Shown in pieces: positions 39,735-43,318 of a DNA stretch of 64,000 nt; the first letter of the stretch is position 1, and the number at the start of each line of letters is the position of its first letter. The translations under genes and the position numbers were made by a program. A model generated the notes under the pieces. That model had not been told where the DNA came from, did not search any database, and worked only from the letters and a program-made list of their open reading frames with translations. Source of the DNA: Rufibacter roseus (GTDB lineage Bacteria > Bacteroidota > Bacteroidia > Cytophagales > Hymenobacteraceae); contig NZ_LRML01000006.1 of the NCBI RefSeq assembly GCF_001647285.1, forward strand, positions 1 to 64,000, in the 5' to 3' direction.

Positions 39735-39765
39735 ACAAAACCCCGACTATTTAGTAGTCGGGGCT
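39735..39765 (-). terminator. Intrinsic terminator of the phenylalanine operon
   Basis: On the minus strand, a 9-bp stem CCCCGACTA / TAGTCGGGG with a 5-nt loop is followed by TTTTGTATTT. It lies about 85 nt past the DAHP synthase/chorismate mutase stop. Confidence 0.8.
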
Positions 39766-39850
39766 TTAGTACTAACCAAAGAAGAAAAGCGTAAACGTAA
39801 AATCTTTATTGAAATTCTTACTCTTGTCTATCTGTTAGATTAAGTTCAAC

Positions 39851-40961: not shown

Positions 40962-42152
40962 TTATAAAGAAAGGGCGGCCGTAGCCGTTACATGTGATTT
41001 AATTCGTTTAATGGCTTCTTCTAATTGTGCTTCTGCAGAGCAGAGGGAAATTCGTAAATATCGCTCTCCTTGTGTTCCAAATATTTTGCCTGGTGTCAGA
41101 AACACACCGGCTTCGTAGAGTATTTCGTCTAAAAAGGCCTCAACATCAGTAATGGCTTCTGGAACTTTGCCCCAGACGAACAGCCCTACTGTATTCTGTT
41201 CGTACGAACACTGTAAAAGGTCAAGCAGTTCATAAACCTTCTCGCGGCGTTGCGCATATACTGCGTTTCTTTCTGCGTGCCACCCGTCAAAATTCTGTAG
41301 GGCCTGAATGGCTGCCTGTTGCACTGGCAGAAACATACCGGAGTCTAAATTGCTTTTCACCCGGAGCACACACTGCAAATACTCTTTATGACCCAGTATC
41401 ATGCCTACCCGCCAACCGGCCATGTTATGTGATTTGCTCAGGGAGTTGAACTCAAGGCAGCATTCCAATGCGTTCGGCAGAGATAGGAGACTCAAAGGCT
41501 TATCGTTGGGCAATACCAGGCTATACGGATTGTCGTTGGCCAGCAGGAAGCGGTGGGTGCGGGCTAATTCTATTAAACCTGATAAAGCGTCGGCAGTGGC
41601 TTCGGCGCCTGTTGGCATGTGTGGGTAATTAATCCACATCAGCTTCACGTCACCGTCTTTTAACAGCTCTTGCAGTTCATTAGCATCTGGCAACCAGCCA
41701 TTTTGTTCTGAGAGCGTGTAGAAGACTGGTTCAGCACCTACTAAGCGGGCAGTTGCCGCGTAAGCCGGATAACCAGGGTTGGGCACCAGTACTTTGTCAC
41801 CGGGGTTCAAGAAAGCCATGGAAACATGGAAAATGCCTTCTTTTGACCCCATCAGCGGTAATACTTCCTCCTCAGGGTTTACTTCTACCCCATACGTGCG
41901 CTTGTACCAATGTGAAATGGCTTGACGCAAGGCCGGTATAGAGTTATAGGGCTGGTATCCGTGAACTCCTTCGCTCATAGAAGTTCTTACCAAGGCACTG
42001 ATGGTTTCTTCTGAAGGAGCCATGTCTGGGTCTCCAATGCCCAGGTTAATGATTTTTTTACCGGCGGCATTCAGGGCTCTTACTTCCGCCAGTTTTCTGG
42101 AGAAGTAGTATTCCTGTACCTGCTCTAGCCGTTTTGCGCCTTCAATGATCAT
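40962..42152 (-). CDS. Class I/II aminotransferase, aromatic amino-acid operon member
   Basis: A 396-aa fold-I PLP enzyme. The substrate and PLP regions are ANPGYPAYAATARLVGAEPV-like near 125-145, NYPHMPTGAEA near 172 and NDNPYSLVLPND near 205. The Schiff-base lysine lies in SLSKSHNMAGWRVGM near 238-252, followed by the C-terminal RISLCS arginine. Its start overlaps the pheA stop by 4 nt (ATGA), so it is translationally coupled. The context makes it the likely phenylpyruvate/hydroxyphenylpyruvate (or prephenate) aminotransferase of Phe/Tyr synthesis, although the fold alone would also allow aspartate or methionine. Confidence 0.85.
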   Translation of the reverse strand: MIIEGAKRLEQVQEYYFSRKLAEVRALNAAGKKIINLGIGDPDMAPSEETISALVRTSMSEGVHGYQPYNSIPALRQAISHWYKRTYGVEVNPEEEVLPLMGSKEGIFHVSMAFLNPGDKVLVPNPGYPAYAATARLVGAEPVFYTLSEQNGWLPDANELQELLKDGDVKLMWINYPHMPTGAEATADALSGLIELARTHRFLLANDNPYSLVLPNDKPLSLLSLPNALECCLEFNSLSKSHNMAGWRVGMILGHKEYLQCVLRVKSNLDSGMFLPVQQAAIQALQNFDGWHAERNAVYAQRREKVYELLDLLQCSYEQNTVGLFVWGKVPEAITDVEAFLDEILYEAGVFLTPGKIFGTQGERYLRISLCSAEAQLEEAIKRIKSHVTATAALSL

Positions 42153-43042
42153 ACTAATTCAGGTTCTTTTTGTAGCACAGAAGAAAGGCATCCGTTCAAT
42201 CTGTTCTGCGGAAGTGGGGCTTTTGCTTTCTCGTACAAGCCCAAAACCTGCAGGTTGGGAGATATTACTTGCAGCGCCGCCAGTGCCTCTGTTATTTGGC
42301 AGGCATTATGGCACTCGGCCTCCAGTACCCAAGCTTCCGGTTGACCCGGATGAACAGAGGGCAGTGGCTGCAGCATGGTCAGCTCAAGGTTACGCGTGGA
42401 CAAAACATCAAGCACGGCGTCTAAGGAGAATCTTACCACCGGGTAGGGCAGAAGCAAAGTAACCTTGTTTGCTACCTTCAATGAAGGGGTAGGTGCAATG
42501 ACCAAAAAGCGGGTAAAGTTATCCAGTTCATTGGCTACATTTTCCTGCAGTATTTCCAGACCATACAGTTCAGCGGCTTTACGGCTGGCAATGGCGGCCA
42601 CGCCTTCTATTTTCTGTTCTTTGATCACGCGGGCAGTGTCAGCGGTATCGGCGGTGGCTTTGGAGGTGGTGTTTGTTTGGGCCTCCACAAACTGGTTGCA
42701 TTGCAGCAGCGCTATGGGGTGAGACCAAATTTCTTTGATGTCAGACAGCTGCTGCCCCGGCAGCGCCATCAGCATTTGGTCTATTAGCAGCCACCGTTCA
42801 GCCGTGATAGAAAAACCATGTTCAGCCAACAGGCGGTAGTTGGGGAGAATGGGTCCAGCCACTGAGTTTTGCACCGCCATGACCGCAAAGTCTGCCACGC
42901 CAGACTGCAAAGTGTGGCACAACTCTTCAAAGGAAGAGCAGGGCAGAGTGCTGATAGACGAGGCGGCGAAAAGTTCTTTCGCGGCGGTTTCATGGAAAGA
43001 GGCGGCGCCTCCCTGAATGGCGATTTTTATGGCTCTGTTCAT
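42149..43042 (-). CDS. pheA: Prephenate dehydratase
   Basis: A 297-aa enzyme making phenylpyruvate from prephenate. The PDT catalytic domain (1-180) opens with IAIQGGAASFHETAAKELF and has VQNSVAGPILPNYRLL near 58-73 and the active-site TRF motif in LDNFTRFLVIA near 168-178. A C-terminal ACT domain (about 190-275) is the expected Phe allosteric site. It lacks the chorismate mutase domain of E. coli PheA; that activity is supplied by the last gene of the operon. It begins just after a transcription terminator, and a Tyr/Phe-rich leader ORF lies upstream, which implies attenuation control. Confidence 0.92.
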   Translation of the reverse strand: MNRAIKIAIQGGAASFHETAAKELFAASSISTLPCSSFEELCHTLQSGVADFAVMAVQNSVAGPILPNYRLLAEHGFSITAERWLLIDQMLMALPGQQLSDIKEIWSHPIALLQCNQFVEAQTNTTSKATADTADTARVIKEQKIEGVAAIASRKAAELYGLEILQENVANELDNFTRFLVIAPTPSLKVANKVTLLLPYPVVRFSLDAVLDVLSTRNLELTMLQPLPSVHPGQPEAWVLEAECHNACQITEALAALQVISPNLQVLGLYEKAKAPLPQNRLNGCLSSVLQKEPELV

Positions 43043-43046
43043 AATG

Positions 43047-43073
43047 AAAAAAGCCCCGCTTTTGGCGGGGCTC
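43047..43073 (-). terminator. Attenuator terminator in the phe leader
   Basis: On the minus strand, AGCCCCGC / GCGGGGCT with loop CAAAA, followed by T6, ends five bases before the pheA start codon. Its 5' arm (GAGCCCCG) is complementary to CGGGGCTC inside the leader ORF (plus strand 43115-43122), giving a competing anti-terminator. Confidence 0.85.
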
Positions 43074-43105
43074 TAAGGTTTCTTATTGTTATTCAACGCA
43101 AAGTC

Positions 43106-43174
43106 TTACCTGTTGAGCCCCGGCTGAGGTCCAAAAAAGTAAAAACCGTAAAAGTATGCGTTGTGCTGTACCAT
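43106..43174 (-). CDS. Phe/Tyr-rich leader peptide of the phe operon (pheL-like)
   Basis: A 22-codon ORF on the minus strand from ATG 43174 to TAA 43106, too short for ordinary gene calling. The peptide is MVQHNAYFYGFYFFGPQPG followed by LNR. Seven of eight consecutive codons (TAC TTT TAC GGT TTT TAC TTT TTT) specify Tyr or Phe. An A-rich region (AAGAAAGAAAC) precedes the start. Codons 18-20 (CCG GGG CTC) form the anti-terminator arm. A ribosome stalled at the Phe/Tyr run would leave that arm free, whereas one reaching the stop would cover it and let the terminator form. This is the standard amino-acid attenuation logic. Confidence 0.85.
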   Translation of the reverse strand: MVQHNAYFYGFYFFGPQPGLNR

Positions 43175-43194
43175 GTTTCTTTCTTAATGATGCT

Positions 43195-43226
43195 CAAACA
43201 TACTAGGTCAAATCACAACTTCCAAA
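43195..43226 (-). promoter_or_regulatory. Promoter of the phe leader/operon
   Basis: On the minus strand, TTTG (43226-43223), a 20-nt spacer and TATGTTTG (43202-43195): an exact TTTG/TAnnTTTG promoter. The start site should fall near 43188, about 14 nt before the leader ATG. Confidence 0.75.
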
Positions 43227-43318
43227 GGTTTTAGAAAAATGTTTTTAAAATTTTCATTAAAACAGTTGTTAGTTTTGAAAAATGTAAGTAAATGCAAACG
43301 GTAGTTAGGTAAATGGCA

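Follow-up and report, generated by a model that had tools for sequence, protein, structure and literature searches.

The 64,000-nt stretch of Rufibacter roseus DNA analyzed here (contig NZ_LRML01000006.1, positions 1 to 64,000; hereafter the window) carries on its minus strand a short open reading frame (ORF) rich in phenylalanine and tyrosine codons, followed by a terminator directly in front of pheA. Does this leader control the genes downstream of it by ribosome stalling? Attenuation through a leader peptide is the textbook mode of pheA control in gammaproteobacteria, exemplified by the E. coli pheA attenuator with its leader peptide PheL (Rfam family Phe_leader). The E. coli and Rufibacter leaders are alike in having a Phe-rich peptide and an antiterminator/terminator switch placed before the gene for the prephenate dehydratase step; in contrast to E. 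coli, the Rufibacter leader mixes Tyr with Phe codons, has a promoter of the Bacteroidota type, and precedes an operon that includes a DAHP synthase-chorismate mutase. Comparison of sequences across the phylum argues, at a probability of about 0.88, that the pheA leader is a ribosome-mediated transcription attenuator responding to charged tRNA-Phe and tRNA-Tyr; when aromatic amino acids are plentiful, the leader very probably shuts the operon off.

Organization of the pheA leader and operon

The operon lies on the minus strand and consists of pheA (prephenate dehydratase, PF00800, E 1.7e-51; 42149..43042), a class I/II aminotransferase gene (PF00155; 40962..42152) that overlaps pheA by 4 nt, and a gene for DAHP synthase (PF00793) fused to chorismate mutase type II (PF01817; 39851..40957). 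The genes overlap or almost touch, and Pfam agrees with the functions proposed for all three in the initial annotation of this DNA. A terminator-like hairpin, found by consensus scan only, follows the operon on the same strand (39736..39768). The amino acids that would be sensed are products of the genes that would be controlled, as these are assigned by Pfam. Among the matches listed, the closest named PheA is that of Rufibacter ruber, with 73% identity.

Direct reading of the minus strand confirms the promoter, 22-codon Phe/Tyr ORF, CGGGGCTC segment, and terminator in the order given by the initial annotation. The putative promoter (43195..43226) reads TTTG-N20-TATGTTTG, with TTTG at 43226-43223 and TATGTTTG at 43202-43195, an arrangement that we take to be of the Bacteroidota type. 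The leader peptide ORF (43106..43174) encodes MVQHNAYFYGFYFFGPQPGLNR, from an ATG at 43174 to a TAA ending at 43106, and has similar counterparts in relatives. Its control codons, TAC TTT TAC GGT TTT TAC TTT TTT (43133..43156; four Phe and three Tyr), make seven of eight consecutive codons Tyr or Phe. The antiterminator element CGGGGCTC (43115..43122) lies within the end of the ORF and complements the terminator 5' arm, an assignment based on duplex energy and covariation.

The intrinsic terminator, AGAGCCCCGC-CAAAA-GCGGGGCTTT plus a T run (43047..43074, minus strand), is detected by terminator scan and conserved after the leaders of relatives. The scan places a hairpin of 10 pairs, seven of them G-C, with a loop of 5 at 43074-43050, and a T6 run extending to 43047; the GC-rich stem and T6 described before are borne out, and the stem length of 8 bp is not. 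Between the T run and the pheA ATG at 43042 there are four bases (CATT) rather than the five reported earlier. The minimum free energy (MFE) and centroid folds also predict a pairing absent from the initial annotation, in which CAACGCA inside the ORF (43157..43163) and TGCGTTG directly after the leader stop (43094..43100), both read on the minus strand, form a helix enclosing the control codons; the TTGCGT region after the stop is conserved in most alignment rows. The 150-nt leader fold is stronger than its shuffles (z = -3.15).

Short leader ORFs near start codons are common, and the accessible part of one study proposes that they boost translation of the next gene (PMC4833913), so the ORF might simply deliver ribosomes to pheA by coupling or reinitiation, with the terminator as a constitutive damper. 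The 63 nt that separate the leader stop from the pheA ATG greatly exceed the 10-14 nt proposed in that part of the study, and simple delivery of ribosomes leaves both the aromatic codons and the covariation of element and arm unexplained; this alternative is very unlikely.

Conservation of the leader and terminator

A PheA search of 59 relatives gave a match in 44, from which 30 loci were fetched. An aromatic leader and a terminator precede pheA in 28 of the 30, the two loci at which they were not found being L024 and L029. Relatives lacking the ORF or the terminator, which the initial annotation had regarded as evidence against an attenuator, do not occur among the own-family loci fetched in this search, 27 of 27 of which have both. 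In addition, the best 80 of 589 confirmed pheA loci were taken from a scan of named genomes, and 78 of these have a leader when the rule is relaxed to at least five of nine codons. The leader-bearing genomes among these best 80 of 589 belong to Rufibacter, Pontibacter, Adhaeribacter, Hymenobacter, Flavobacterium, and many other Flavobacteriaceae, together with two Bacteroidales MAGs and one KSB1 MAG.

The 30 fetched and 80 named loci, minus seven repeats, form a non-redundant set of 103. By a rule that asks for an ATG-initiated ORF, 9-50 codons long and no more than 250 nt away, in which some stretch of nine codons has at least six for Phe, Tyr, or Trp, a leader is present at 98 of these 103 loci, a set weighted by construction towards close relatives, versus 0.95% of 4120 dinucleotide shuffles; the antisense strand gives 1/103, and windows farther upstream give 0/406. 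The ATG rule finds no leader at L024, L029, L041, L056, and L091, the last of which has an aromatic leader with a GTG start. The promoter motif TTTG-N18-21-TAnnTTTG, with at most one mismatch and at most 90 nt upstream of the leader ATG, accompanies 69 of the 98 leaders versus 7.9% of shuffles; the exact motif accompanies 27 of 98 versus 0.6%.

A terminator stands between leader and pheA in all 98 cases, by a scan whose rule requires a T run; 4.4% of 1960 shuffles contain any hairpin, and none contains one as good as the real one. From the terminator to the pheA match the distance varies from 6 to 123 nt across loci, and this variation, with leader and terminator kept, fits the prediction of transcription control. 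The distances also bear on the proposal that the hairpin acts on translation, hiding the pheA start until translation of the leader opens it, with no termination of transcription. Such masking would suit the window and its 13 nearest loci in the genus (L001-L014), where the hairpin ends 6-9 nt before the pheA match; in many other lineages, however, 20 to 123 nt separate its end from the pheA match, a distance mostly too great for the start to be covered. A T run follows the hairpin in 98 of 98 cases; the scan rule demands this run, and few shuffles pass the rule. Control by masking is unlikely, and transcription attenuation is the reading retained here.

Some features of individual genomes deserve mention. 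The stop codon of Flavobacterium leaders (e.g., L044, L052) comes early (18-19 codons) or late (26 codons), and the antiterminator element lies after the leader stop in some Flavobacterium loci and before it in others. In the MAG labelled candidate division KSB1 (L040), pheA is preceded by an aromatic leader and a terminator that resemble those of the window's own family; this may reflect transfer or a misplaced contig. Two genomes of high completeness lack biosynthetic matches, G016 for pheA, HisG, TrpE, and IlvD and G007 for pheA and IlvD; both are possible amino-acid auxotrophs.

Distribution in the phylum was assessed with 198 genomes sampled evenly across it, 172 of which have the PDT family. 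In the same class outside the window's own order, 35 genomes have a match, of which 27 were examined (the remaining eight score lower); a leader, each with a terminator, was found at 24 of these 27 loci and not at L169, L191, and L197. The earlier view that a pheA attenuator is unusual in Bacteroidota does not survive this count, nor the elements before pheA and hisG described in the available text of PMC9723704. Outside the class, the best-scoring loci were examined and 0/29 have the leader. The own order, with the own family set aside, has 20 matches, of which 16 were examined; four have the leader (L025, L209, L210, L214) and 12 pheA loci are without it, six of which (L215-L220) carry a distantly related dehydratase of 28-31% identity. 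These 12 loci weigh against the attenuator reading. The leader element typifies many of the class's pheA operons but not all of them.

Covariation of the antiterminator element and terminator arm

Agreement of the element, the 5' arm, and the 3' arm is, at the level of sequence, the strongest evidence pointing to a real switch. In the window, the duplex of CGGGGCTC with the arm has an energy of -18.3 kcal/mol versus -10.5 for shuffles (p 0.01). Of 89 distinct cases, 71 show pairing between the terminator 5' arm and the stretch after the control codons that beats shuffles (p ≤ 0.05); in the other 18 it is not significant. The arm varies by lineage (GAGCCCCG, AAGTCCCG, AATCCTGAT, AGGTCCCG, AGGGCCCC, and others), and the element follows it. 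For 28 representatives whose arms all differ, the mean is -13.2 kcal/mol for own pairs versus -9.5 for exchanged pairs, the own-pair mean is reached by 0 of 2000 permutations, and the own arm falls in the best quarter for 22 of the 28 elements; the search for covarying stems in relatives, suggested when the attenuator was first described, has thus revealed an element and a terminator arm that change together. The parts, their order, their conservation, and this covariation are directly observed. Alignment-free pairing tests were used because the terminators of different lineages are misaligned in the MAFFT alignment, on which RNAalifold returned only nine pairs, two with change on both sides.

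Ribosome placement and proposed mechanism

The effect of a translating ribosome was modeled by folding, with the assumption that 15 nt are covered from the A site onward. The terminator arm is sequestered at a median of 0.75 with the ribosome on the control codons versus 0.02 with it at the stop; the difference between the two positions exceeds 0.4 in 91 of 98 leaders, and seven do not show the effect. Among 94 distinct leaders 95% exceed 0.4, compared with 57% when the element is shuffled (n=752); in this model the ribosome-placement effect is real, but the test is weak on its own because 57% of shuffled controls pass. By computation, then, both the masking by the ribosome and the pairing tests accord with the earlier proposal that the competing pairings and the position of the stop codon fit stalling-dependent control.

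For the window leader, predicted availability of the element is 0.6-0.9 at each of the seven control codons versus 0.11 at the stop; since each control codon leaves the element available, a shortage of Phe or Tyr alone should be sensed. In the classical scheme a protector (1:2) pairing allows the terminator to form when the leader is untranslated. The window leader folds with the CAACGCA/TGCGTTG helix, but in the model with no ribosome the arm is predicted to be sequestered too (0.85 for the window leader; median 0.76), so that a protector role lacks clear support. The terminator of the window leader is favoured at equilibrium in every computed ribosome state (0.72-1.0), and the switch must therefore rest on the order of folding during transcription, that is, on an assumed kinetic mechanism.

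For this leader we infer transcription, translation, ribosome stalling, termination in the cell, and a response to amino acids along the following lines. When Phe and Tyr are plentiful, the ribosome would read through the Tyr/Phe codons to the stop and mask CGGGGCTC; GAGCCCCG would then stay unpaired, and the terminator would form right before pheA. When Phe or Tyr is scarce, the ribosome would stall at codons 7-14 and CGGGGCTC would remain free to pair with GAGCCCCG before the 3' arm of the terminator is made, allowing transcription to continue.

Comparison with described regulatory RNAs

A 5' element that binds a protein or a tRNA (a T-box or an attenuator of the repressor type), to which the short ORF would be incidental, is the least probable of the alternatives, being extremely unlikely. 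That the region folds better than shuffles would be expected of such an element, and a conserved repeat pair upstream of the promoter suggests an extra DNA-binding regulator. Against it, only a tRNA matches Rfam (including Phe_leader, T-box, and Bacteroid-trp) in the window at gathering score, L001, L026, L040, and L052 match no Rfam leader family, Phe_leader included, at E ≤ 0.5, and the ORF remains rich in aromatic codons although the sequences differ greatly, suggesting that its translation matters. A broader Rfam search of 15 loci at E ≤ 0.5 gave one match above its cut-off, Flavo-1 (L052, downstream), and sub-threshold matches to Trp_leader (L135) and STnc430 (L134). No described RNA family was found that covers the pheA element.

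The repeat pair comprises the direct repeats CTAACTACCGTTT (43308-43296) and CTAACAACTGTTT (43272-43260), which lie 36 nt apart on the minus strand upstream of the promoter (43260..43308) and have the form CTAAC-N4-GTTT; both AAC-N4-GTTT cores occur at 36-nt spacing in 11 of 15 genus loci. As the mark of a regulon the repeat does not stand out, with eight matches in the genome versus six for the reversed pattern, and allowing one mismatch gives three matches in the window, a number reached by 23 of 100 shuffles. The pairing and conservation of the repeats are what point to them as a possible regulator site additional to the attenuator.

Leader-peptide attenuators have some precedent in the phylum and beyond. 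The transcriptome of F. psychrophilum, in the portion available, describes conserved, structured 5' elements before pheA and hisG with clues to leader-peptide attenuation (PMC9723704, 2021). The pheA element described here shares gene and phylum with those Flavobacteriaceae elements; that portion states conservation in other genera of the family without leader peptides or alignments, and the present comparison extends the pheA element, with controls, to Hymenobacteraceae and other lineages. The accessible section of a B. thetaiotaomicron map mentions short ORFs that call leader peptides to mind (PMC7366714), and the Bacteroid-trp RNA motif (RF01692), whose name points to trp genes, is listed among the candidate cis-regulatory RNAs of Bacteroidetes (PMC2864571, in part). 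Elsewhere, attenuators were predicted in Actinobacteria (PMC1262725, excerpt), and amino-acid attenuators were suggested to have perhaps originated in gammaproteobacteria with very few transfers, at a time when Rfam held four such motifs (PMC3766115, excerpt). As far as the available portions of these sources indicate, what is new is the comparison, its reach, and the serial attenuators for the same amino acid described below; the same pheA element may perhaps have been predicted by Lopatovskaya and others in 2010. The switch is of an ordinary type, well supported and little described in this group, and the serial arrangement found nearby is unexpected.

The distribution of the leader indicates that classical leader-peptide attenuation is a common control of aromatic amino-acid synthesis in the class. 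It also provides conserved short ORFs for experiment and a handle on transcription-translation coupling in the phylum.

Leaders of other operons and possible serial attenuators

Leaders with fitting codons also precede hisG (His), trpE (Trp), and ilvD (Ile/Val) in the same genome, which counts in favour of the pheA attenuator; attenuation in this genome probably extends to the synthesis of His and Trp, and perhaps of Ile/Val. Upstream of hisG, a His-rich short ORF (at least four His in 10 codons) is present at 11 of 12 fetched loci versus 4 of 600 shuffles (L115 in the own genome, and L111, L113, L114, L116-L122). Before ilvD, an Ile/Val-rich leader ending in PLPQGG is followed by a terminator-like hairpin at six of nine genus loci (L145 in the own genome, and L139, L142, L144, L149, L150); 14 ilvD loci were fetched overall, and eight of these have an Ile/Val leader versus 52 of 700 shuffles, a weaker result against chance.

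In the window's genus trpE is preceded by two Trp-Trp leaders in series at 15 of 15 fetched loci (L127, L128-L133, L136, L270-L276), and 0 of 750 shuffles have two. In the own genome (L127) both lie at -319..-133 relative to the TrpE family match. By a relaxed rule, a hairpin that ends in a T-rich tail stands after each trp leader and is weaker at the first; the promoter motif precedes the first leader in 15 of 15 and is found between the two leaders in none. Pairing of the element is significant for leader 2 in 14 of 15 loci; for leader 1 the first test gave 1/15 at p ≤ 0.05, and a second definition, set after the sequences had been viewed, gave 9/11, with 4 of 15 loci missed by the pattern. 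Outside the genus there is one leader at L124, L125, L134, and L135, and none was found at L123 and L126. The Bacteroid-trp motif RF01692 has no match at E ≤ 0.5 in six trpE loci (L124, L125, L127, L130, L134, L135).

The pheA leader itself is doubled in most of the Hymenobacter genomes examined. A PheA search of 61 genomes of this genus gave 55 with a match, and 52 upstream regions were examined; two serial Phe/Tyr leaders are present in 37 of the 52 and one in 15 (loci concerned: L026, L027, L028, L030, L073, L076, L094, L221-L269). Two pheA leaders are also found at L076 (H. mucosus) and at L028, which belongs to a different genus of the family. The element test is weak in Hymenobacter (leader 1, 15/41; leader 2, 20/41; single leaders, 0/15). 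The promoter motif, always before the first leader, occurs in only 13 of 57 Hymenobacter regions, so that the case for a single transcript is weaker there than for trp.

Among the titles listed in literature searches, none concerns serial attenuators that answer to one amino acid. A described parallel is the Salmonella mgtCBR leader, which likewise holds two attenuators; in the accessible part of that report they are tandem, answer to two signals (ATP and proline), and are termed a singular example (PMC3641672), whereas the trp and phe pairs described here repeat the same amino acid or acids. With somewhat better than even odds, the two members of such a pair are each a complete attenuator and sit one after the other on a single transcript, both answering to the same amino acid; in that case readthrough would depend on two stalling events multiplied together, and the response to amino-acid supply would be steeper and tighter than with one attenuator. 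The serial units offer a natural experiment on what repetition of an attenuator does to a response, and the 15 Hymenobacter genomes with one leader could be expected if each unit works alone.
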